Below are positions 3,587-38,905 of a stretch of DNA of 42,124 nt, in pieces (the first letter of the stretch is position 1; each line of letters starts with the position of its first letter). The DNA lies in IMG/VR virus record IMGVR_UViG_3300031566_000120, positions 1 through 42,124 of that record, one strand, 5' to 3'. This DNA comes from a virus. The notes below the pieces were generated by a model. It searched no databases. It was not told where the DNA came from and worked only from the letters and a program-made list of their open reading frames with translations. The translations under genes and the position numbers were made by a program.

Positions 3587-5142
3587 CCATGCGAGAGATC
3601 GTTCGCGAGAGCAGGCGGGCGGGCGTCGTCGGCGGCAGGCTCGACGACTGGATCCGCGCGGTATCCCCGACCTGGGCACTCTCCCGCGCCTCGAAACGCG
3701 CACGCGCTGAGGCCTCCGTCTACCAGGCGGCAAGCGCAAAGAGGATCTTCGAGAACTGGTTTCTCGGGGAGGACGAGGACTGGTGGTCAAGCCTCGAGCT
3801 CCCGGAGATACGCAAACGCTGCCGCGACCTCGTGCGAAACAACCCGACGGCCGCCGGCATCGCGCTGATGCTGACCTCGCGGGTGATGGGACTGGGCCTC
3901 TCGCCGCAGCCTTCGTTTCAGGGAGTGCGGGATCTCTCCGAGGATCGCCGCACGGCCTGGCGGGAGGCGGTCGACGATATCTGGGTCAACTGGTCGCTCT
4001 ACGGCTCGGCCGACGAACGCCGGAATTTCTGGCGGCTGCAGAGGCTGGCCTTCAGGCGGGCGATCGTCAACGGCGATTCGTTTCTCGTGAGGAAGTGGAT
4101 CGAGTCGGACGGGCGGCCTTTCGCCACGGCGTACCAACTCATCTCCGCGGACCGCGTGGCCAACCCCACCGGCCTTTCGACGGACAAGAAACTACGAAAC
4201 GGCATCCGCTTCGACGTCAACGGCAAGCCGACGTCGTTCTACATCCGCCAGGCCGGCGCCGGCGGTTTCAGCGCGTTAAGTTTCGACGAGGTGCCCGCCT
4301 ACGGCGACGACGGGGTCCCCAACGTCCTCCAACTCATGATAGAGACGGAGGATGACCAGAGTCGCGGGGTGCCGCTCCTGACGCCGGCAGTGGCCACGTT
4401 TAAGCAGATGAGCGACTACATCGAGGCGATGCTGGTCAGGGCACGGGTCGAGGCCTGCATCTCCGGCTTTGTGCGAACTACCGACGCCGCGGGGACTCTC
4501 GGCGGCCGGACCGCAACTACCGACCAGGTCGGGGGAGCCACGCGGCGCATCGAGGACCTGGCGCCGGGCATGATCGAGTATCTCAATCCCGGGGAGGAGA
4601 TCGATTTTCTCACGCCGCGGAGCCCGGGCAACCAGTTCGAGATCTTCATCAAGCGGCTTCTCCGGGGCATCGGCGCCTCGATCGGGGAGCCGTACGAATT
4701 CATCAGTCAGGATTTCAGCGAGTCCAACTACTCGCAGTCGCGCCTCGCGGTGCAGCTCTCCGCCGACGGTTTCGCGACGCTGCGCGCGGTCGTCGCCGAG
4801 GACGTCTGCCAACCGGTCCTCGAGACGGTGGTGAGGGAGGCGGCGCTGCGCGGCATGATTTCGGAACCCGAGTACTTGCGGCGGCCGGACGATTTCACCA
4901 GGGCCCGCTGGGTAGGCCCCTCGCTGCCGTACATAAACCCCGTCCAGGAGGCGCAGGCCCACAAGCTGGGGCTCGAGACCGGCGAGATCACGCTTGCGGA
5001 CATCTGCCTGGCCCAGGGCAAGGACTGGCGCGAGAACCTCAACCAGCGGCTCGCGGAGGAAAAACTGCGGAGGGAGTCCGGCCTCGCGGAAATGCAGAAC
5101 AAGTCAAGACCGAAGGGAGAAGAAGATGACCAAGGCGACTAA
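3583..5142 (+). CDS. Portal protein (lambda family)
   Basis: 519 aa. Dodecameric portal through which DNA enters and leaves the head. Features of the lambda-type family: an N-terminal region with RKRCRDLVRNNPTAAGI, the central block FRRAIVNGDSFLVRKW followed by ADRVANP, and the C-terminal GASIGEPYEFISQDFSESNYSQSR region that is highly typical of these portals. Length is normal. Start is GTG 3583, with ATG 3589 two codons later as an alternative. It sits between the gpW-like gene and the protease/scaffold gene, the standard order. Confidence 0.93.
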   Translation: MTMREIVRESRRAGVVGGRLDDWIRAVSPTWALSRASKRARAEASVYQAASAKRIFENWFLGEDEDWWSSLELPEIRKRCRDLVRNNPTAAGIALMLTSRVMGLGLSPQPSFQGVRDLSEDRRTAWREAVDDIWVNWSLYGSADERRNFWRLQRLAFRRAIVNGDSFLVRKWIESDGRPFATAYQLISADRVANPTGLSTDKKLRNGIRFDVNGKPTSFYIRQAGAGGFSALSFDEVPAYGDDGVPNVLQLMIETEDDQSRGVPLLTPAVATFKQMSDYIEAMLVRARVEACISGFVRTTDAAGTLGGRTATTDQVGGATRRIEDLAPGMIEYLNPGEEIDFLTPRSPGNQFEIFIKRLLRGIGASIGEPYEFISQDFSESNYSQSRLAVQLSADGFATLRAVVAEDVCQPVLETVVREAALRGMISEPEYLRRPDDFTRARWVGPSLPYINPVQEAQAHKLGLETGEITLADICLAQGKDWRENLNQRLAEEKLRRESGLAEMQNKSRPKGEEDDQGD

Positions 5143-8664: not shown

Positions 8665-8957
8665 AGGAACTCCTGGAACTTCTTTTCGAGGTCGCAAAGG
8701 TTTTCGGCATACCCGCCGTGGCCATCGGCTTTTTCATATGGCAGGGACACCGCAGGGAACTGCGCCTCGCCGCACGCCTCGACGTCGTCGACGACTACAT
8801 CCGCAACACGCTCCAGACGCTCGTCGTCGACGGGCACAAGGCCGTCCAGGCCAACAGCCAGATGATGGCCGACTTCACGGCGGCGCTCAAGACGCGGCCC
8901 TGCGTCGCCACGGATATCGAAATGCTCGAATCAAGGAGGCCACCTGGTGGCCGATAG
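8661..8957 (+). CDS. Small single-span membrane protein
   Basis: 98 aa. A hydrophobic helix at residues ~12-26 (FGIPAVAIGFFIW) is followed by an Arg-rich turn (HRRELRLAAR) and a helical segment to residue ~80. Such small one-span proteins with a charged helix resemble some holin-like or phage membrane proteins. Its place inside the head-tail cluster, with start and stop overlaps on both sides, means a lysis role is only a guess. It overlaps the next gene by 11 bases. Confidence 0.5.
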   Translation: MKELLELLFEVAKVFGIPAVAIGFFIWQGHRRELRLAARLDVVDDYIRNTLQTLVVDGHKAVQANSQMMADFTAALKTRPCVATDIEMLESRRPPGGR

Positions 8958-9708
8958 TCTTCAAATCACGACGGCCTCCCTGGCCGCCGGCGAAGTGGGA
9001 GTGGCCTACTCCGAGACGCTGGGCGTTTCGGGCGGGACTCCCGCGTACACGTGGGCGAGGCTTCTCGGGCCGCTGCCCCAGGGACTATCCCTCGCCGCTG
9101 CCACCGGCGAGATCTCCGGCACCCCCGAACGCGTCGAAACGACTACCTTCGCGGTCCGGGCGACGGACAGTCTCTCCGCCACTGGGGACAAGGTTCTCTC
9201 GATTGCCGTCACGGACCCCGCCGGCGTGACACCCTCGGGGATGCTCACGGGGCCCGTCCACTACGCGCGCCTCACCTTCTGCGCGTCGGCGGCATTTCAA
9301 CGGATGATGGGCGCGGCCGACGCGGCCGAGGCCCTCGACTACCTGCCGATCATCGCGGCAGTCGGCGACGATATCCCGATGGGCGCCATCGGCTGGGCCG
9401 GGACGTTTTCTCGGGACTCAGTAGCAGGCGGCAGTCACAACTACTTCGCGAGTAAGGGCGAGATCGAGGCGATTATCCGGGTCGCCCCCTACGATGCGGA
9501 GGCCTGTGAGGGGGACATCTTCGCCCACTTCTCAAATGATTTGGGCGAGATGCTTGCGGACATGGAGCTCCTGTCCGGCACCGCCGGGTACCTCGACACG
9601 CGGGGCGCGACGGTCCGCGGCCCGATGAGGCCCTTGGAGGCCGAGCGCGCGACGGTCGGCGATTTTCTCGAGGCGGTCGTCACGCTTTCTTACCCCGGGA
9701 GTTCGTAA
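8947..9708 (+). CDS. Tail/neck protein with N-terminal Ig-like domain
   Basis: 253 aa, GTG start. Residues ~3-90 form a putative Ig (He_PIG-type) domain: ITTASLAAGEVGVAYSETL, then GGTPAYTW, PQGLSLAAATGEISGTP and FAVRATDSLSATGDK are its hallmark strands. Residues ~100-253 are a separate alpha/beta domain (AAFQRMMGAADAAEAL... EVVTLSY-like end), in the position and size range of a tail terminator or tail-completion protein. The Ig domain probably decorates the head-tail junction and binds surfaces weakly. Fusion to a neck-position protein is uncommon. The next gene starts in its stop codon (TAATG). Confidence 0.5.
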   Translation: MADSLQITTASLAAGEVGVAYSETLGVSGGTPAYTWARLLGPLPQGLSLAAATGEISGTPERVETTTFAVRATDSLSATGDKVLSIAVTDPAGVTPSGMLTGPVHYARLTFCASAAFQRMMGAADAAEALDYLPIIAAVGDDIPMGAIGWAGTFSRDSVAGGSHNYFASKGEIEAIIRVAPYDAEACEGDIFAHFSNDLGEMLADMELLSGTAGYLDTRGATVRGPMRPLEAERATVGDFLEAVVTLSYPGSS

Positions 9709-10319
9709 TGCCCGTTGGACTGCACATCATCGCGAGATACGAAGGCCCCATCGAGGGGAAGATGCGCGACTTCTACCCGGTGCTGACGAAGGCGCTCAGG
9801 GCGGAGGCCGAGTTCTGGCGCGACAAGATTTTGCCCGGCCACTTCAAAGCGGGGGCGGCGCGGAAATACGGGTACAAGCCGCGGGCGGGCACATACACCG
9901 ATTCGAAGCGCGCCGCACTCGCAAAGGGGCGCGTCTACGACTCGAAGTTGAGGATTAACGTGCCCCTGGGGGATCCGCAACTTCCGGCTCTCGTCTGGAC
10001 GGGGCGCACGCGGGGTTTGATGACGAGCCAATCCCGCCTTCTCGTCTTCGGCAAAAAGGTCTCGCTCAGGATGAAGGCGCCGAGCTACATCTTCCAGGCG
10101 GAGCAAATGACCCAGGAATGGGCGGAGCGCGCGAACGCCGCGGCGCGAAAGAATGCGTTCTTTGAATCGAAATCGAAGGCGGTTGCCCGGCCCCCGATGG
10201 TGAACGAGATCGTCCGGATGACGCCCGACGAGCAGGCCGACCAGATGGCGAGAATACAGGACTCCGTGCAGGCGCTTCTCGTGAGACGCACGCCGGTCGA
10301 GGTAAGGAAAATAGCCTGA
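9708..10319 (+). CDS. Tail completion / virion morphogenesis protein
   Basis: 203 aa. Basic, helical N-terminus with KALRAEAEFWRDKILPGHF and a Tyr/Arg-rich segment ARKYGYKPRAG, followed by PALVWTGRTRGLM, a motif common in HK97 gp10/Mu gpG-like tail completion proteins (the phrase LxWTGxLR is typical). It fits between the neck protein and the presumed tail tube gene. It would act in joining tail to head. GGGAG lies eight bases before the ATG. Confidence 0.6.
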   Translation: MPVGLHIIARYEGPIEGKMRDFYPVLTKALRAEAEFWRDKILPGHFKAGAARKYGYKPRAGTYTDSKRAALAKGRVYDSKLRINVPLGDPQLPALVWTGRTRGLMTSQSRLLVFGKKVSLRMKAPSYIFQAEQMTQEWAERANAAARKNAFFESKSKAVARPPMVNEIVRMTPDEQADQMARIQDSVQALLVRRTPVEVRKIA

Positions 10320-10337
10320 TCCCGAAAGGAGACTGAC

Positions 10338-11201
10338 ATGTCCTTCTCACTCGCGGCCCTCAAAAGCGACACAACGGTACTCGGGGGCATCAAAAGTTCA
10401 AGCGTCTCTCCCGGCCTCCAGATGATGCTCGAGGGCGGCTCGGGGCAGGTCTACAAATCGTACGGCGCCGTGGACAGGCTCGCCCCGGTCGCGGAATTCA
10501 GCAGCATCAACATCAACGCGCTGCTGGCCTTCTGCGGAGTCGCGGGCCTCGCCATCAACGCCACGCCGCTCGAACTGTATTTCGTCGAGGACGAGGAGTT
10601 CGTAAGCCGTAAGACGACCGGCGTGAAGATGACACTCTCGAAGGGCGTCCTTTTCCCCCGAAGCGTCTCAGGCCCGGCCATCGGGCCCGCCACCATCACC
10701 TACGGGATCGCCCTGGGCGGGTTTGCCGGCGCGGCGCCGTTCTCAATAGGCATCGACCAGGAGGTGCCCACGGGGGCGAACGTACCGGTGATCGAGATGT
10801 TCAAGGGCGGCCCGCTTACGATTAACGAGGTCGACGCGGGGCCGGTCGAGGACGGGGCAATCGATTTCAACTTCACGATAAGAGAGATCTTCGGCTCCGG
10901 CGCGGTCTACTCCCAGCGGATCCACATTGAGGACATCAGCCCCAGGATGCGGTTCACCGTCCTCGACGCCGAGACGCTCAACACCGTCGGCCTAACGGGC
11001 TCGAACCTGCTGGTGACCTGGACGTTGCTCGCGTGCACGCGCGACGGCGGGAGGACAGGCTCGGGGGATATCGTCTTTTCCACGCACCAGAACAACGTAC
11101 GCGTGGAGGGGATATCGGGCGCGCACGGAGGCGGAGTGTCGAGCACCCTCATCGTGGATGCGAGCTGGGACGGGACGAACACGCCGATCACCGTCGGCTG
11201 A
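10338..11201 (+). CDS. Probable major tail (tube) protein
   Basis: 287 aa, AAAGGAG seven bases upstream of the ATG. Beta-rich with no transmembrane or enzyme motifs: IGPATITYGIALGGFAG, then IDFNFTIREIFGSGAVYSQRIHIEDISPRM, and a C-terminal LIVDASWDGTNTPITVG. It sits directly upstream of the tail assembly chaperone and tape measure genes, the slot of the tail tube subunit in siphoviruses. No family match is claimed; the call rests on position and composition. Confidence 0.5.
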   Translation: MSFSLAALKSDTTVLGGIKSSSVSPGLQMMLEGGSGQVYKSYGAVDRLAPVAEFSSININALLAFCGVAGLAINATPLELYFVEDEEFVSRKTTGVKMTLSKGVLFPRSVSGPAIGPATITYGIALGGFAGAAPFSIGIDQEVPTGANVPVIEMFKGGPLTINEVDAGPVEDGAIDFNFTIREIFGSGAVYSQRIHIEDISPRMRFTVLDAETLNTVGLTGSNLLVTWTLLACTRDGGRTGSGDIVFSTHQNNVRVEGISGAHGGGVSSTLIVDASWDGTNTPITVG

Positions 11202-11220: not shown

Positions 11221-12027
11221 ATGGGAAGCATTCTGTACTTCATCGCGGGCGAGGCGGGGGCGGCGGAGGCAGTCCTTCGCGCGCGCAACCTCTCGGGAGT
11301 CCTCGCGGGTCTCAAACCCACCACCCGCGGCATCTACAACGGCCCGGAGGGAAAGTCCGGCGTGCTCCTGGCCGGCAACCCGTCCGGGGACATCGGATAC
11401 TTTCCCGACCGGCAGACCTGGCGCAAGGGTACGCGCGGGGATTTCTGGCTGGGCTTTGACCCGGAGGATCCGCCGACGCCCGAGGACCTGGCGAGACCGC
11501 GGCTCGTGTCCGGGCACACGGTCGAAATGCGCGGCGGCGGCAAGTGGACTATTCCCGTGGCGCGCTCTTTCCCCGTGGGCACGGGGCTGCCCCAGATAAT
11601 CGTCCTGGACGAAACCGGGACTGTCACTACCGAGACGGTGCCGGAGTTTGTCGACCTGTCGCGGCGCGCAGAGAAGATCTGGACGGCCATGATCGAGGCA
11701 GCGGCGGCGGCGGAAGAGAAGCGCGCCGCCGGCGACGAGACGGCCGTCGCCGTCTGGTCGATCTCGTTTGCGGAGCGTTTTGAGATCGCGGTCGCGGCGC
11801 TCGCCGTCAACTATCGCCTCGAGGCCGACGAAATCAGCCTGCTCAAGATCATGGAAGGCATACACCAGGACCAGATTCTCTACGCCCTTGTCGACGGCCC
11901 TGCGCTCGACCTCTTCGCAAAAAAAAACTCCATCCCCGAATCCTCACCTACCACCGATGGCGAAGCGGCGAGCTGCCCGACTACCGCCCCACCTTCGGCG
12001 ACCTCGAAATCCTGCGGAGAGAGTTAA
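11221..12027 (+). CDS. Tail assembly chaperone, zero-frame product
   Basis: 268 aa, GGAGG seven bases before ATG 11221. The gene sits between the tail tube and tape measure genes, the universal place of tail assembly chaperones (lambda G/GT), which coat the tape measure while the tube polymerises. The N-terminal half is mixed alpha/beta; residues ~140-235 are helical (AEKIWTAMIEAAAAAEEKRAAG, LLKIMEGIHQDQILYALV). After the A9 tract at 11919-11927 the zero frame degenerates into a Ser/Pro/Thr-rich tail, while the -1 frame looks like real protein. The next gene's ATG touches its stop. Confidence 0.65.
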   Translation: MGSILYFIAGEAGAAEAVLRARNLSGVLAGLKPTTRGIYNGPEGKSGVLLAGNPSGDIGYFPDRQTWRKGTRGDFWLGFDPEDPPTPEDLARPRLVSGHTVEMRGGGKWTIPVARSFPVGTGLPQIIVLDETGTVTTETVPEFVDLSRRAEKIWTAMIEAAAAAEEKRAAGDETAVAVWSISFAERFEIAVAALAVNYRLEADEISLLKIMEGIHQDQILYALVDGPALDLFAKKNSIPESSPTTDGEAASCPTTAPPSATSKSCGES

Positions 12028-12035
12028 ATGCCTGA
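11221..12035 (+). CDS. Tail assembly chaperone, predicted -1 frameshift product
   Basis: About 271 aa. Nine A followed by C (11919-11928) offers several slippery A-AAA-AAA/AAC sites. Slipping back one base gives a new tail that reads ILTYHRWRSGELPDYRP and then TFGDLEILRRELNA, ending at TGA 12033-12035. This is far more protein-like than the zero-frame tail (Trp, Tyr, Asp-Leu-Glu pattern typical of phage tail chaperones). The -1 product overlaps the tape measure start by eight bases. Programmed -1 shifting at this gene is conserved among long-tailed phages. A one-base sequencing error in the A-run would look the same, with the -1 tail then the only true end. Confidence 0.65.
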
Positions 12036-13506
12036 CGTAACCTACACGATCTCGGCCGAAGCGGCGAAGGCGCTTTCGGAAGTCGCGAAAGTGGGCCTCG
12101 AGTACAAGCGCGTCGAGGCGGCGGCCAAATCCACCTCCGATAAGAGCAGGACCGGGGCAGACGCCGTTTCGAAGTCCCTGAAGGGCGCGGTATCGAGCCT
12201 GGTAAGCATGGCGGCCGGATACATGTCCGTGCGGACGGCTATCAATCTCGCAAACAAGGCCTATGAGGACCACATAAAGCTTCAGCGGCAATCGCTCGAG
12301 GCGGCTGCCACCTGGTCGCAGGCGCGGGCAACCGCCCTCGAGATGAGACCCGGAGAATCGGCGGCGGTTACGGCGATGGTGGCGGCGGCCGCGAAGGCCG
12401 GCGGGGTGCCGGAGACGGATATCTGGCGAGCGGCGCCGGCGGCGCTCTCGGCGGCTAAGGGGCTTACGCTCGACCAGGTGCAGAGCGCACTCGCAACCTC
12501 CGCACGATACGCAAGAGTCCAGGGTACGGGCGCCGGCGGGATCACAGCCCGCGCCCAATACGCGCAGGACATCATGCGGATAAGCGGTGCGAAGGACGCG
12601 GCGGCGGCCCTCGGCAGCCTTCAGACGGTGATCGCCGGGGCCCGCGGCATCTCGGCAGAGGCGGTGGCCCAATCGTTCGTCCCGGCCGCTACAGGCTACC
12701 AGCGCTATGGCGACACCTATCGGGAGACGATGGGGTTCATGGGCGGCATGTCGTATTTGATGGGTGACGTGTCGGGCGAGGCCACCGCTACGGGTTTTGC
12801 GGGAATGCGCGAACGGCTTTCGACGCTCCAGGTGCCCAAATACGGGGGTCTCAAAAGCGGCACGACGCTCGGGCGCCTTCAGGAGCTCGGGCCGCTCTTC
12901 ACAGCGTTACCTGACGAGAAAAAGCGGAAACTGCTCACGCAGATTTCCCGGGGCGCAGTCTTTCAGGGCAAGGTTCGCGGTCTCCTGGAGGGAGATGAGG
13001 CCTCCTGGTCGGCAATCAGGGAATCGACCGCAGGGATTCGCGAGCCCGGGCCGGAGGCGGCGGCGCTGGTGGACGCATACTTCCAGGAGGTGGGGGAGGT
13101 GAGGGAATCGGCCGTGGACGAAATCCGAACCGGCGGCGCGGCTACTCGGGAGCGGCTTGCCCGTAAGAGAGTCACGGGCGCCAGGGGCGTCCTCGCGTAT
13201 GACGAGATGGTTTCCGGGCTGGAGGCGGCTGGGGTACCGTATTTGGGGCGATTAGGGGCACGCTCATTATATTACACTGCCCGAATGATGGGCGAGGAGC
13301 CATTTGAGGCCGCGGCGCAAGCGGCCGAGTCCAGGAGCTTCCAACCTCCAGGCCGGCGACTGCGACCAGGAATTGTGAGCGCCGCGGGAGGAGATGCAGC
13401 GGTGAGAGAACTCGCCGCGTCGCTCAGGGCGGCGGCGACGGCGGCCGAGAGGCTCGCCGAGGGAGACCCGGTCGGGGTGTCTGCCCCGAGCAATCACACG
13501 GAGTAA
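12028..13506 (+). CDS. Tape measure protein (short)
   Basis: 492 aa. Helical, Ala-rich protein in the tape measure slot; GGAGAG sits about eight bases before the ATG. Residues ~45-75 contain a hydrophobic helix (GAVSSLVSMAAGYMSVRTAI), and LYYTARMMGEEPFEAAAQ lies late. Tape measures set tail length at roughly 0.15 nm per residue, so 492 aa would imply a tail near 75 nm, at the short end for siphoviruses. The C-terminal ERLAEGDPVGVSAPSNHTE is nearly repeated at 14074-14127, evidence of a local duplication. No lytic domain is seen. Confidence 0.65.
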   Translation: MPDVTYTISAEAAKALSEVAKVGLEYKRVEAAAKSTSDKSRTGADAVSKSLKGAVSSLVSMAAGYMSVRTAINLANKAYEDHIKLQRQSLEAAATWSQARATALEMRPGESAAVTAMVAAAAKAGGVPETDIWRAAPAALSAAKGLTLDQVQSALATSARYARVQGTGAGGITARAQYAQDIMRISGAKDAAAALGSLQTVIAGARGISAEAVAQSFVPAATGYQRYGDTYRETMGFMGGMSYLMGDVSGEATATGFAGMRERLSTLQVPKYGGLKSGTTLGRLQELGPLFTALPDEKKRKLLTQISRGAVFQGKVRGLLEGDEASWSAIRESTAGIREPGPEAAALVDAYFQEVGEVRESAVDEIRTGGAATRERLARKRVTGARGVLAYDEMVSGLEAAGVPYLGRLGARSLYYTARMMGEEPFEAAAQAAESRSFQPPGRRLRPGIVSAAGGDAAVRELAASLRAAATAAERLAEGDPVGVSAPSNHTE

Positions 13507-24817: not shown

Positions 24818-25966
24818 ATGCAGATCGAAATGTGGAAAACGGGGAAGGTCAAACCCTACAAGAACAACCCGCGTACGCCGGGCCGGGCGGTCGATGCGGT
24901 TGCCGAGTCGATCACTCGGTTCGGGTTCCGACAGCCGATCGTGGTCGACCCCAAAGGTGTTATCATCGTCGGTCACACCCGCTGGCTTGCGGCCAGGGAA
25001 CTGCACCTCCCGGAGGTCCCCGTCCATGTGGCGAGGGACCTCCCGGCAAAAGAGGCGCGGGCCTACCGCGTAGCAGACAACAAGACGGGGGAGGTGGCCG
25101 ACTGGAACACGGAGAAACTGGTGAGGGAGTTGACGGGCCTGCGGGAGGACGGCGTCGACCTGGAGGCTCTCGGGTTCACGGTCGACGAACTGCAGCAGGT
25201 CCTGAAACCCACCGCCTCGATGGGCCGCACGGACCGCGACGAAATCCCCCAGCGGGAGAAAAAGACCCGGAGCAAACCGGGGGACCTCTGGAGGCTCGGC
25301 GACCATCGACTCCTCGTGGGGAGTTCGCTGGACCCCGACTCAGTCTCGAGGGCTACGGGCGGCCGAATGCCCCTGGCCATCACTGACCCGCCCTTTGAAC
25401 TCAACGCCTACGACCAGGCGAAGGCGCTGCGCCTCGCCGGCGTGAAGACGGCGGTGGTCCTCGGCGGTGGGAAGGAAGTCTGGGCGCTTGCGGCAATGGA
25501 GGATTTCGGGATTCGCTTTGACTTCGTCATAGTCTACGACAGGAGCGTCGCCCTGTCGGGCAAGTCCTCACTCATCTACCGGCACAACCGGGTCCTCCTG
25601 ATGGATTACGACCCGGCCGACAAGAAGTCCCCTCCGGGCTTTTCCTCGGGGGCCGTCCTGGGCAGGGGAGTACCATTTGACCGGGACAAGTGGGCCTCGA
25701 TTACCGGCACGAAATGCTCCGTTCTCCAGGCGCCGGTGCAGAAGTCGCTCTACGGGTACGGGGAGATCTGCGACATCTTCCGATCGTTTGTTCGGGCGCT
25801 CCACAGCCCGACGGTGTACGACCCATTCGCCGGCTCGGGCACCGGGATGATCGCCTCGGAGATTGAAGGCAAGAAATGGATCGGCGTTGAACTCGAGCCC
25901 TGGGTGGCCGACATCGCGGTCAAGCGGTGGGAGGCCTTCACCGGGCGAAAGGCGGTGAGAAAATGA
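24818..25966 (+). CDS. ParB-domain DNA methyltransferase fusion
   Basis: 382 aa. Residues ~5-130 are a ParB/Sulfiredoxin-type domain (NPRT... AVAESITRFGFRQPIVVD, VGHTRWLAARELHLPEVPV), the usual N-terminal partner in phage ParB-methyltransferases. Residues ~155-382 are the methylase with motif order beta: DPPF at 190-193 (DPPY/F, catalytic) then DPFAGSGTG at 335-343 (SAM-binding motif I). The gap of 140 residues holds the variable target-recognition part. It probably makes N6-adenine or N4-cytosine methylation that protects phage DNA or regulates it. The gene overlaps the next by four bases. Confidence 0.85.
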   Translation: MQIEMWKTGKVKPYKNNPRTPGRAVDAVAESITRFGFRQPIVVDPKGVIIVGHTRWLAARELHLPEVPVHVARDLPAKEARAYRVADNKTGEVADWNTEKLVRELTGLREDGVDLEALGFTVDELQQVLKPTASMGRTDRDEIPQREKKTRSKPGDLWRLGDHRLLVGSSLDPDSVSRATGGRMPLAITDPPFELNAYDQAKALRLAGVKTAVVLGGGKEVWALAAMEDFGIRFDFVIVYDRSVALSGKSSLIYRHNRVLLMDYDPADKKSPPGFSSGAVLGRGVPFDRDKWASITGTKCSVLQAPVQKSLYGYGEICDIFRSFVRALHSPTVYDPFAGSGTGMIASEIEGKKWIGVELEPWVADIAVKRWEAFTGRKAVRK

Positions 25967-30115: not shown

Positions 30116-30910
30116 TCACACCGCCGCGACGAAAGGACGAAACGACTTCACGGTCGAGAACGGCACGCGGTTCTTGCGGTGCCGATACACAAGCAGCACG
30201 CCCCCATCCGCCTTTTCGTAGGAGGCGACGACCACGGCGGGATCCCCACGTAGTTCGAAAAGGCCGAGGCCGGAGCCCTGGACCCTTGCCTCCGGTCCGA
30301 AGATCGCGAAGCCCCGGAACCCCCCCGGCAACCCCTCGAGATCGTCGTCAATCCTCACGGCGATCGACCCCGTTGGTACCGGGCCATAGACTACGTACTC
30401 CCGCTCGCCTTCCTCCACGTCGTCCTCGAGGCCGAGAAACCCCCCCGTCTGACTGAATGACCCCTCGAGCGGCACGTACTCGACGTAGAGGTCTTTCTCG
30501 GCATCTTTTTCGGAAATCATCAGGATGAGGGGTTTCCGGCGTGGACCGGGCGGCATGATTGTCCCCTTCCCCTGGAGTCCGGGCTGCTCGAGTATCCCGA
30601 GTTTCGAGACGAACTGCCGGCCTGGCGGGTTCATCTTTCGATACCGTGCGGCCTGAAGTACCTCCTCGGCGCGGTCGGCAGGTACCCGCCATCGGGCCAG
30701 GATGTCCTCCAGCCGAGAGAGTGCCGGGGGCGGTGCATCGCCCCGAAGTATCTTGGACAGTTGCGGCCGATTGTAATGACCGGCTCTGGCGGCCGCCGTT
30801 ATGTTGCCCTCAAAGAGGTCCTGTACTACCTCAGCAAATACGTCTATGAACTCTCTGACTTTCAAACTCCACCGTGCCTCCACTCCCCACGTATGGACTA
30901 TTGTACACAC
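30116..30910 (-). CDS. CI-like repressor with degenerate S24 domain
   Basis: 264 aa from GTG 30910; GTG 30883 or TTG 30865, the latter with GGAGG 11 bases upstream, are possible later starts. Residues ~36-73 are an HTH (NITAAARAGHYNRPQLSKIL). The C-terminal 120 residues resemble the LexA/CI S24 fold, ending SIAVRIDDDLEGLPG, PAVVVASYEKADGG. The catalytic Ser in the GDSM motif is replaced (IDDDLEG) and the Lys (VKR) is missing, so it should not self-cleave. It faces the Cro-like gene across the switch region. Confidence 0.65.
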   Translation of the reverse strand: MCTIVHTWGVEARWSLKVREFIDVFAEVVQDLFEGNITAAARAGHYNRPQLSKILRGDAPPPALSRLEDILARWRVPADRAEEVLQAARYRKMNPPGRQFVSKLGILEQPGLQGKGTIMPPGPRRKPLILMISEKDAEKDLYVEYVPLEGSFSQTGGFLGLEDDVEEGEREYVVYGPVPTGSIAVRIDDDLEGLPGGFRGFAIFGPEARVQGSGLGLFELRGDPAVVVASYEKADGGVLLVYRHRKNRVPFSTVKSFRPFVAAV

Positions 30911-30920
30911 AAGGACAATG
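30901..30920. promoter_or_regulatory. Candidate operator in the switch region
   Basis: The 104-base interval 30911-31014 separates the divergent repressor and Cro-like genes. At its left edge, ATTGT (30899-30903) and ACAAT (30914-30918) face each other as an imperfect operator-like inverted repeat, with an inner TTGT/ACAA pair. An AT-rich patch (CAAAAAAACTTTATATT, 30940-30956) follows. No promoter pair could be fixed with confidence. Confidence 0.4.
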
Positions 30921-31014
30921 GGCGGCCCCAGGAAAGTTGCAAAAAAACTTTATATTCCTCTTGCAGGGGGGGCCGTGGCGGCGATATACTCTCCACCGGG
31001 TCAACAGGTGCAAC

Positions 31015-31266
31015 ATGGAGGAACCGAGGGTGAAACGGGGAACGTTCAACGGATTGGCGCTGGTCGAATGGCGTCTCGGCATGGGAAAGACGCAGAGGGA
31101 AATGGCTAAAATGCACCGCGTTTCCGCGGCGACCTGGGGCCGGTGGGAGGGCGGCGACTGCCCCAAGCCCGGGAACCTGAAGACGATCTGCGACGAGAGC
31201 AAGAAGCCGCTCTCTTTTTTTTTGACGATAGACGTGGGTATACCCGCCACGAAGGGCGCCGACTAA
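31015..31266 (+). CDS. Cro-like XRE regulator
   Basis: 83 aa. An HTH at residues ~14-52: LALVEWRLGMGKTQREMAKM then HRVSAATWGRWEGGDC, with a typical TQREMA helix 2 and SAATWGRWE recognition helix. ATG 31015 has AGGTG five bases before it; GTG 31030 with GAGGG is an alternative. It is the first rightward early gene, opposite the repressor, the place of cro. The next gene starts inside its stop (TAATG). Confidence 0.75.
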   Translation: MEEPRVKRGTFNGLALVEWRLGMGKTQREMAKMHRVSAATWGRWEGGDCPKPGNLKTICDESKKPLSFFLTIDVGIPATKGAD

Positions 31267-32991: not shown

Positions 32992-33279
32992 GTGGAACTG
33001 AAAGAGGTAATCGCCGCGGCGACCGCGGACTGTCTCGACGGCATCGACAAGATGTACCGGCGGCACGGGAAGACCTTCGACCGCAAGGCGTTTCTTGCGG
33101 ACGCGCTCATGATGGCGCCGGCGGATGTCCCGGAGGACCTCCGGACGCTCTCGCTGGGGCAGCTCTCCCAGGCCGCGCGCAACGTTGAGAAGCATTACCG
33201 GACGTGCATCGCACACGATCAGTCGCCGCGCAAAAAAAAGCCGACGGGCAAAGAGGCCGCGGCGGGAATGGGCAAGTGA
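32992..33279 (+). CDS. Early hypothetical protein
   Basis: 95 aa, GTG start with only a weak ribosome site. Helical: MELKEVIAAATADCLDGIDK, GKTFDRKAFLADALMMAP, LRTLSLGQLSQAARNVEKHY, then a Lys-rich tail. No motif recognised. It is the second gene before the replication gene and may be a replication accessory, but nothing in the sequence shows this. Confidence 0.6.
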   Translation: MELKEVIAAATADCLDGIDKMYRRHGKTFDRKAFLADALMMAPADVPEDLRTLSLGQLSQAARNVEKHYRTCIAHDQSPRKKKPTGKEAAAGMGK

Positions 33280-33473: not shown

Positions 33474-34802
33474 ATGGCGTCGAGGGCGAAAGTCGCGATT
33501 CTCGAAATGTGGGAATATGGTATCCGCGTTACACCCAGCCAGCGATGCCTCCTCTGGGGGATGTCCGAGTACGAATGGCCCGAGGGCTTCTGCTGGTACA
33601 CCGCTGACACAATCGCGAAGTTCGCCGGGACGAAGCGGCGAAACGGTCAACGCACGATGAGGCAACTCGTGAAGCGCGGGGTAGTCCGTAAATGGATATG
33701 GATTAACCCCGGCGGCAGACAGGGGGCAAACGTCTACAAGGTCTGCCTGCCCGGCCTGGCGCCGGTCACCGAGGAGACGATCAGGCACCTCAGAAACCAG
33801 CGAGGCGGCGCCCCGGCGGTCGGCTGGGAACAACTCCGAGAAGACCTCGGACTGCCCCGCCAGAAGCCCGATTTGAGGGGCGTCCAGGGTGACACCCCTG
33901 AGGGGCGTCATATTGACGCCCCTCAAACGGAATCGAGGGGCGTCAAAAATGGCCCGGGAGGGGCGTCATTTATGGCCTCTGAGGGGCGTCCAGGACGACA
34001 CCCCACTCATAATGTTTTAGATCCTATGACTATTAAACCCAAGGGGGAGGGGGGGGCTGCTTCCACTCCACAACACCCCGCCGGACTGCCCGCCGACGGG
34101 AACCCTCCCCCCCCCACTATTTTTCCCGACACCCCGGAAGAAGAAAAACCACAGGCGGTCGATGAGGCGCTCTACGGCCAGGCGGTCAAGATCGTCAGAG
34201 AAAACCAAAGGGCAAGCGTCTCGCTCCTGCAACGCCGCCTCGGAATCGGCTACTCGCGAGCGGCGCGCTTGATCGACGTCATGAGCGAGAGGGGCGTTGT
34301 CGGGCCGGACAGGGGGTCGGTGCTTCGCGAAGTACTTCCGGCTGCCGGCGACGTCGATGAGGAGGCCGCGGCGACTCAAGTGTGGTGGACGGCGATCTGC
34401 GGGGCGGCCGAGGGCGGGGCGCCACGACGTCGAAAGATCGCTGAGGCCTGCAGGATGATAGCCGCCGAGATGGCCAGGCGCTGGGGAGCGGATGTCGAGA
34501 GGGTGCTCTTGCATCTCTTGATGCGCCGGCCCCAGGCGGCGGCGTCGGCGGAAACCCTTTGCCGATACCTGTTCAACGGCTGGGGGCTCGAGGGGCTTGC
34601 GGCAAAAACCGCTTCGGCGACGGAGCGCACAATCATCGACGTTGCGGAAACGACAAGGGTCGCGGCCGAGGACGAGGCGACAATCGCCGCCAATGTCGCG
34701 CGGCGCCACGAGATTGGCGAGGCGTTTCGAAACGGCGGCTGGGAGGGATTCCGGGCATGGGCTAAAGAAACGGCGGCGAAAGGAAAGGAGGACGCGGCAT
34801 GA
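33474..34802 (+). CDS. Replication initiator-like protein with FtsK-gamma domain
   Basis: 442 aa, GGAGGGG seven bases upstream of the ATG. Residues ~1-95 are a winged-helix domain (WYTADTIAKFAGTKRRNGQR, LVKRGVVRKW) like phage replication initiators. Residues ~134-228 are a Gly/Pro-rich linker whose DNA holds the iterons. Residues ~230-291 are an FtsK/SpoIIIE gamma domain: ALYGQAVKIVRENQRASVSL, LQRRLGIGYSRAARLIDVMS and ERGVVGPDRGSVLREVL follow the family nearly word for word. Residues ~300-442 are helical (CRMIAAEMARRWGADVERVL). Gamma domains read KOPS/SRS, G-rich 8-mers. There is no FtsK motor. I infer origin binding; no known phage family of this type comes to mind. Confidence 0.8.
   Translation: MASRAKVAILEMWEYGIRVTPSQRCLLWGMSEYEWPEGFCWYTADTIAKFAGTKRRNGQRTMRQLVKRGVVRKWIWINPGGRQGANVYKVCLPGLAPVTEETIRHLRNQRGGAPAVGWEQLREDLGLPRQKPDLRGVQGDTPEGRHIDAPQTESRGVKNGPGGASFMASEGRPGRHPTHNVLDPMTIKPKGEGGAASTPQHPAGLPADGNPPPPTIFPDTPEEEKPQAVDEALYGQAVKIVRENQRASVSLLQRRLGIGYSRAARLIDVMSERGVVGPDRGSVLREVLPAAGDVDEEAAATQVWWTAICGAAEGGAPRRRKIAEACRMIAAEMARRWGADVERVLLHLLMRRPQAAASAETLCRYLFNGWGLEGLAAKTASATERTIIDVAETTRVAAEDEATIAANVARRHEIGEAFRNGGWEGFRAWAKETAAKGKEDAA
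33875..34038. other. Putative replication origin: iterons plus AT-rich region
   Basis: GAGGGGCGTC occurs at 33875, 33900, 33935, 33958 and 33981 on the plus strand and inverted (GACGCCCCTC) at 33915-33924. Plus-strand copies are 23-35 bases apart. Copies 2 and 3 form a perfect palindrome of two 12-base arms (33899-33910, 33914-33925). An AT-rich run 34007-34038 (AATGTTTTAG, CTATGACTATTAAA) follows, suited to unwinding. It is embedded in the initiator gene, as lambda ori is in O. Confidence 0.75.
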
Positions 34803-37015: not shown

Positions 37016-38905
37016 ATGGCGGGCAGAAATGATAGTCAAAAGAAGGTCCCGGCAGGGCTCAAGGACCTCGCCGGCACGCCGGCGGGGAAGCTGATTCACG
37101 AACTGCACACGGGAGGGGAGAAGGAAGTCGACCCCGGGCGCATCCAGATGATACCGATTGGGAAACTGGTCACGACGCCGGAGAACCCGAGGGTGATCGA
37201 CGAGAAGGCGGCGGAGTTCGAGGACCTGGTCAAGTCAATCACAGCACAGGGCGTGGTGCAGCCCTTACTCGTGCGGCCGACGGGCACGCGCCGGGGGATC
37301 GGGAACGCCTTCAAGTTTGAAATCCGCGCGGGGGAGAGGCGGTTTCGGGCGGCTGTTGCCGCGGGGCTAAAGACGCTCCCCTGCGTAGTCCGGGAGATGT
37401 CGGATACGGAAGCCTTTGACGTGACCTTTACCGAGAACGCGCACCGCGAGGACCTGACGCCCGTGGAAGAGGGGAAGGCCGTCGGGATACTGCTCGCGCG
37501 CCACGGCGGGGACATCAACGCCGTCTGCGCCGCGATGGGACGAAAGCCCACGTGGATCGCACAGCGGCTCTCCATCGACCGGCGGCTTATCGACGGGTGG
37601 AAGAAACTGGCGTCGTCGGCCGGGATGAAGGGCAAGGTCACGGCAAGGCACCTGGAACTTTTGGCGAGGATACCGGAGCCGGTCCAGAAGCATTTCCTCG
37701 ACATGGCCCTCGGCAAACAGCACCGATGGACCAGCTGGCTCGAGGAGGGGCTGCCCACGGGTGAGGATCTCGCCGACAGGATCCAGGACGAACTGAGGGT
37801 GCTGTCAAAAGCCCCGTGGAAACTCGACGATGCTACGCTCACGAAACGGCCGGCGTGCGCAGAGTGTCCGAAGCGGTCGTCAAAGGATCCGCTTCTCTGG
37901 GACTCGGCCAAGACCAAAGACGACCAGTGCCTCGACGCCAAATGCTACGAGGAGAAGGTCCTGGCGGCGACAGTGCGCGCCGTCGAGAAGGCGCGGGCGA
38001 AGGACCCGGACGCCGTTCTCGTCGCGGGTTACTACGACGGGCCGTCCGAGAAACTTGCCAAGGCGCTCAAGGGGCCGTTTCTATCCTCGCATAAGGTGAC
38101 CGGCTGCACAAAGTCGGACCCCGGGGCGAAACTGTGCGTTCACGTCTCGGGCGAAAAGATGGGGAAGACGTTTTACGCAAAGGTCCGGCGCGATAGCGGC
38201 GCCGGGTCGCGGACGGCGCTCACGCTTGCCGAGAAAAAGAACCGCCTCGAGAAGAAGCGGTGGGTGGAGGTCGAGAAGCGGGTGGCGAAGAGGCTCGAGG
38301 ATAACCGTGACTGGAAGAAGGTGAAGACGCCGAACGGGGTCACTCGACAGGGCCACCTGATCGCCCTCGCCGGGTACTACGGCTGCCACAGCCTGGCAAA
38401 CCCGGGCTACTACTCCCCCGACGTAATGGCCGTCGACCTGAAGGTATTTCGGAAAGCCTTCGCAGGGGAGGCCGAGAAGTTTCTGCCCGGGCAGCAGGAT
38501 TTCGAGGGAGTCCTTTGGGAACTGGTGAACGACAACATCGCGACTGCGATGCACATCGAGGCCTACGTCACGGAGATCCGGCCGGACATGAAGGACGCAA
38601 TCCGCCTCGCCGCGCGGATCGTGGGCGCAGACGCCGACGAAATCCTCAAGGCAATCTCCAAGGAGGCGAAGTTCGCCACGCCGGCGGCCTGGGGGAAGAA
38701 GGCCAAGGCGGCGAAAAAGACGGGAACAAAGGAGGCGAAGGGCAAGAAGGCGCCGGGTACCGTAAAGCAACCCACGCCCGAATCGCCGCAAGTGTGTGAA
38801 CGGTGCGGGCAGGCGCCAAAGGTCGACCTCGCGGTGTGCGCCGCGTGCAGGAAGGAACTCGACGAGCAGGTGGCGGCGAGGAAGAGGGGAAGGACGGCGA
38901 AGTGA
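37016..38905 (+). CDS. Long ParB-like protein with C-terminal zinc ribbon
   Basis: 629 aa, AGGAGG seven bases upstream of the ATG. Residues ~43-155 form a ParB CTPase fold: GERRFRAA (106-113, box II) and ENAHREDLTPVEEG (140-153). An HTH (residues ~155-200, AVCAAMGRKPTWIAQRLSI) follows. Residues ~280-330 have Cys pairs (CAECPKRS and CLDAKCYEE). The C-terminus ends with CERCG...CAAC. The length is about double a ParB. No ParA is present, so partition is unproven; plasmid-like maintenance or DNA loading is an inference. Confidence 0.75.
   Translation: MAGRNDSQKKVPAGLKDLAGTPAGKLIHELHTGGEKEVDPGRIQMIPIGKLVTTPENPRVIDEKAAEFEDLVKSITAQGVVQPLLVRPTGTRRGIGNAFKFEIRAGERRFRAAVAAGLKTLPCVVREMSDTEAFDVTFTENAHREDLTPVEEGKAVGILLARHGGDINAVCAAMGRKPTWIAQRLSIDRRLIDGWKKLASSAGMKGKVTARHLELLARIPEPVQKHFLDMALGKQHRWTSWLEEGLPTGEDLADRIQDELRVLSKAPWKLDDATLTKRPACAECPKRSSKDPLLWDSAKTKDDQCLDAKCYEEKVLAATVRAVEKARAKDPDAVLVAGYYDGPSEKLAKALKGPFLSSHKVTGCTKSDPGAKLCVHVSGEKMGKTFYAKVRRDSGAGSRTALTLAEKKNRLEKKRWVEVEKRVAKRLEDNRDWKKVKTPNGVTRQGHLIALAGYYGCHSLANPGYYSPDVMAVDLKVFRKAFAGEAEKFLPGQQDFEGVLWELVNDNIATAMHIEAYVTEIRPDMKDAIRLAARIVGADADEILKAISKEAKFATPAAWGKKAKAAKKTGTKEAKGKKAPGTVKQPTPESPQVCERCGQAPKVDLAVCAACRKELDEQVAARKRGRTAK

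Follow-up and report, generated by a model that had tools for sequence, protein, structure and literature searches.

Results and discussion

A probable frame change at a run of nine adenines

Does the gene at 11221-12027 of the viral record IMGVR_UViG_3300031566_000120 encode one protein or two and, if two, is the second one owed to the ribosome or to the RNA polymerase? The question arises from a run of nine A followed by C, which the first-pass annotation had taken for a programmed -1 frameshift in a tail assembly chaperone gene. The window, that is, the whole stretch of DNA analysed here, comprises the entire virus record of 42,124 bases. The run (A9 at 11919-11927, C at 11928) lies exactly where the annotation had placed the frame change and is read in the zero frame as TTC GCA AAA AAA AAC TCC, so that the in-phase GCA AAA AAA AAC contains two heptamers, A AAA AAA and A AAA AAC. 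The zero frame ends with TAA (12025-12027), directly followed by the start codon of the next gene (ATG, 12028). Stops flank the -1 frame upstream at 11781 and downstream at 12033-12035 (TGA), the latter just past the start of the tape-measure-like gene, as had been described; no ATG, GTG or TTG start lies within this frame. The computed lengths, 268 aa for the zero-frame product and 271 aa for the -1 fusion, agree with those given before (268 and about 271 residues). The coordinates of the features are collected in Table 1; the -1 tail of the window includes the peptide SGELPDYRPTFGDLEILR.

Table 1. Features of the putative tail module around the slip site (coordinates of the window)
Feature	Position	Strand	Basis
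Putative major tail tube gene (gpV position)	10338..11201	+	Location only; 29% identity to its positional counterpart in L083
Putative tail assembly chaperone, zero-frame product (gpG-like), 268 aa	11221..12027	+	Homologues
Candidate slip site A9-C	11919..11928	+	Run of nine or ten A in the corresponding position in 7/7 members
-1 frame tail KKKLHPRILTYHRWRSGELPDYRPTFGDLEILRRELNA, putative gpT-like extension reached by -1 shift, fusion of 271 aa	11919..12035	+	Invariant residues in seven members
Tape-measure-like protein, 492 aa, ATG right after the zero-frame stop	12028..13506	+	Position and counterparts in relatives

In dinucleotide-preserving shuffles of the window, A9 is expected 0.04 times on both strands together, compared to the two cases observed, and the run at 11919-11927 is the only A/T run of at least eight bases within the first 31 kb. 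Furthermore, GCA and AAA are minor codons in the window, and the chance of Ala-Lys-Lys being written as GCA AAA AAA is 0.7%.

The second nine-base homopolymer, T9 on the plus strand (31215-31223), is likewise of a length prone to slipping by RNA polymerase and lies towards the end of ORF 30874-31266, a small helix-turn-helix gene (the HTH_31 match is below the cut-off). Another small ORF carries a run of eight A (33232-33239) close to its 3' end; this run probably represents ordinary lysine codons.

Homologues in uncultivated viruses

Homologues of the chaperone gene, 61% to about 21% identical to it, were identified in six other uncultivated viral contigs, each with an A-run at the homologous place (nine A in five contigs, ten in L093) and with the same -1 relation of the frames, which thus holds for 7/7 members. 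Two of these contigs were recovered in searches that did not demand an A-run, namely, L002 (30% identity) by a protein search using the sequence encoded upstream of the run, and L083 (61-62% identity to the window) by a two-row profile; in both, A9 followed by C occupies the corresponding place and a -1 tail is present. A DNA pattern consisting of eight or more A, 38-68 bases and L..[DN]YRP retrieved 59 stretches and added four members, L093 with A10 and L096, L109 and L119 with A9, in which a long zero-frame ORF ends shortly after the run and the motif is found in the -1 frame; 4/7 members thus came from a pattern demanding A8 or more. A hidden Markov model of the N-terminal part, trained only on the window, L083 and L002, confirmed L096, L109 and L119 as homologues (E-values of 1e-31 to 8e-33), and L093 was marginal (E = 0.22; 0.0043 in the leave-one-out search) but has the same anatomy as the other members. 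Three further pattern hits (L084, L085 and L088) are unrelated, the NYRPTFGDL common to them being situated inside a long open reading frame. The 47 records of terminase relatives contained none matching the chaperone family and hence could not serve as a set unaffected by the A-run bias.

The place of the switch can be narrowed down in L002. There, a TAA (3600-3602) overlapping the run (3601-3609) closes the -1 frame, and the zero frame is terminated one codon past the run, at 3613, which confines the switch to about 10 nt at the A-run. The analysed DNA of the six relatives (3.6 to 14.8 kb) carries no other A/T run of at least nine bases. Between the window and L083, nucleotide identity rises from about 75% upstream of the run to 89% after it.

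The conserved -1 tail and the length of the two predicted products

Alignment of homologues, which the first-pass annotation had proposed for assessing whether the -1 frame is conserved, revealed a -1 tail in 7/7 members. The motif W..G.L.[DN]YRP follows the run in the -1 frame of all seven, and a Lys, W, G, L, Y, R and P are invariant. The tails of L002 (KKTVALARYEAWARGRLPNYRPTIGDLHLLSLER) and L083 (KKKLAARILTYYRWRSGELRDYRPTFGDLEILRREIDAGR) exemplify this conservation, and the -1 tail of the window on its own matches L002 in a tblastn search (3e-5). Past the run, the tails extend for 31-61 residues, with that of L119 meeting the contig end after 38. The -1 frame thus encodes a conserved C-terminal extension devoid of a start of its own.

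The shift had also been viewed as a swap of tails of almost equal length, but this is not a design. The zero frame continues for 32 codons after the run in the window and in L083, but only for 1 in L002, 4 in L093, 6 in L109, 7 in L096 and 10 in L119; near-equal lengths are therefore confined to the window and L083, the member nearest to it. For the remaining five, the shift appends a short C-terminal tail of about 31-61 aa, in keeping with the normal G/GT pattern. The zero-frame tail is fairly conserved between the window and L083 (25/32 residues). Simulations with the -1 peptide and phage codon use left the zero frame open for that long in 59% of cases, and the Ser/Pro-rich tail of the window is most likely just read-through.

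Neighbouring genes and the proposed role

The position between tail tube and tape measure, which the first-pass annotation had likened to that of lambda G/GT, is supported by the six homologous contigs, with the roles of the neighbours assigned by gene order. The genes follow one another as terminase, portal, FII-like head-tail joiner, tube position, chaperone and tape-measure-like gene, and the upstream head and packaging genes are of the lambda type (GpA terminase, lambda-family portal), accompanied by a virion structural protein (phrog_1731) and an FII/Hc1-like head-tail joiner. L083, L002 and L109 have genes that correspond in position to the tube-position, chaperone and tape-measure-like genes; the counterparts of the tape-measure-like protein are 471 aa long and 28% identical in L083, and 566 aa long and 19% identical in L002. 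Neither the chaperone nor its tail matched a named family in Pfam, PHROGs, NCBIfam or PDB sequences, the tube-position gene yielded no significant match in Pfam, PHROG, NCBIfam or PDB, and the tape-measure-like protein gave no significant hit to named families; consequently, the functions of all three rest on gene order. AlphaFold2 models were too poor for fold searching (pLDDT of 48 for the chaperone and 30 for the tube-position protein).

The comparison with L083 also exposes a sharp mosaic (8947-11201 of the window versus 735-2990 of L083), in which the product of 8947-9708 is 91% identical and that of the tube-position gene only 29%. Elsewhere in the window, the genes at 24818-25966, 33474-34802 and 37016-38905 encode ParB_N plus DNA methylase, FtsK gamma and ParB_N domains; the partition or segregation flavour of these genes may hint at an unusual life style.

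We infer that the gene is, with high probability, a lambda G/GT-style -1 recoded tail assembly chaperone gene of an uncultivated tailed phage, from which two products would be made depending on how the A9 is decoded; the sequences themselves show the A-run and the -1 frame, both of which are conserved across the seven viruses. In most rounds of expression the zero frame would be kept, resulting in a gpG-like chaperone, and a minority would move to the -1 frame, resulting in a chaperone with the short conserved C-terminal tail W..G.LPDYRPT..DL. By analogy with lambda gpG and gpGT, the plain form might coat the tape measure and the tailed form might recruit the tail-tube subunits.

Ribosome or RNA polymerase?

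The term 'frameshift' used in the first-pass annotation holds as far as -1 recoding at the A-run, conserved in the homologues, is concerned; its ribosomal nature does not follow, because A9 also suits slippage by RNA polymerase. We see about an even chance that ribosomal -1 slippage on A AAA AAA or A AAA AAC is mainly responsible, and it seems rather improbable that neither kind of slippage is. Programmed transcriptional slippage, whereby the RNA polymerase would stutter on A9 or A10, adding one A or dropping two, and the tailed form would be translated from the altered mRNA, is a real possibility, albeit one that we place somewhat below even. It is a serious rival because the run length is kept at 9-10, the codon phase drifts and a conserved stimulator is lacking. 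Indeed, the length of the run (nine in six members, ten in one) is better conserved than its codon phase, the first A being in codon position 3 in four members, position 1 in L002 and position 2 in L093 and L119. A homopolymer of about 8-9 or more A is thus kept across the relatives (six A9 and one A10, found in part via the A8 pattern), and nine A or T is the length for efficient slippage by bacterial RNA polymerase (PMC5009743, PMC3711429). If only seven A were needed, the probability of at least nine in all members would be roughly 3e-5 to 1.5e-3, under a simple geometric model that assumes independence where independent events are few and 4/7 members were found via the A8 pattern, a circumstance that weakens this argument. 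As regards stimulators of the ribosome, the RNA downstream of the run folds no better than shuffled sequences in the window and L083 and only modestly in L002 and L093; a Shine-Dalgarno-like element within 25 nt of the run is present only in L002, that of L109 being too far off; and no stimulator common to the seven sites was found.

On the other side, an in-phase A AAA AAA heptamer is present at 7/7 sites, so that ribosomal -1 slippage is possible everywhere, and further heptamers are available in L093 and L096 (A AAA AAG) and in the window, L083 and L109 (A AAA AAC). Longer runs of A might also promote slipping by the ribosome, which counts against a specifically transcriptional signal. In L002, a perfect 8-bp inverted repeat (CGGTAGCC/GGCTACCG, 3610-3656) begins immediately after A9, and GGAGG is found about 11 bases before the run; this combination of a Shine-Dalgarno-like element upstream and a stem after the run favours the ribosome at that site. 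Moreover, the tail chaperone recoding described in the literature consulted is ribosomal (PMC5009743). It is conceivable, if somewhat doubtful, that in this chaperone family, seen so far only in uncultivated viruses, the G:GT ratio is determined by slipping of the RNA polymerase on A9 and not by ribosomal frameshifting.

Error, phase variation and chance

Judged from the sequences, the frame relation at the A-run is neither a sequencing slip nor a product of chance. Homopolymers are generally error-prone and L093 has A10, but a sequencing or assembly error, with a real gene of eight or ten A in a plain single frame, is very improbable: the -1 relation is present in seven separate contigs, six of them with A9, and a one-gene reading would need an error at the same spot in every record. 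Even with the A10 of L093 the frames stay offset, because the codon phase differs there. Phase variation, in which replication slippage would alter the run length and single phages would make one form or the other, seems equally remote; although DNA polymerase also slips on homopolymers (PMC3711429), the length is nine in 6/7 diverged members where a switching run would vary, and on/off switching would ill suit a chaperone whose two forms are required in constant proportion. It is just as hard to believe that the -1 tail is open by accident and not made, the zero-frame tail being the real one: the open and fairly conserved zero frame of the window and L083 would fit, but the zero frame is soon closed in the other five members and the -1 motif is retained throughout.

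Relation to known systems

In lambda, the minority -1 product of G/GT joins the tape measure and the tube subunits (PMC5009743). The recoded chaperone gene proposed here resembles lambda gpG/gpGT (the class of Xu, Hendrix and Duda 2004; PMC5009743) in its place between the putative tube and tape measure genes, its long zero-frame product, its -1 fusion with a C-terminal extension and its slip-prone heptamer near the gene end, but differs in that its slip site is a homopolymer of nine or ten A, its extension is short (about 31-61 residues) and its family has no detectable sequence relation to known ones. Known tail chaperones are highly diverged (PMC5009743), and the absence of a match to named chaperone families does not speak against a G/GT way of working. 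With the transcriptional slippage of Thermus thermophilus dnaX (PMC5009743, PMC3711429) the locus shares nine A as the only evident signal and a switch of frame that changes the product; however, the gene considered here has another role, its shift adds a conserved tail, and slippage is only a proposal for it. Finally, in the HK97-like chaperone cluster of GeneTack, frameshifting of 6-7% has been measured (PMC3711429). This cluster parallels the window in being a phage tail chaperone with a low-level programmed shift, as proposed here, whereas no relative of the window protein turned up among the cultivated phage records. Among the open-access papers searched, none was found to describe a tail chaperone with transcriptional slippage.

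In tblastn searches, four members of the chaperone family were compared with 50,697 phage records and one member with 72,556 plasmids; no relative was returned, and two scans of prokaryote genomes were likewise negative. The kind of recoding is already known; the protein family is undescribed, with no cultivated or named relatives found. Conserved tail-chaperone recoding would thereby be extended to a phage group devoid of such relatives, in which A9 together with W..G.L.[DN]YRP provides a motif for annotating these genes, and the seven members constitute a natural set for asking whether polymerase slippage can set a chaperone ratio.
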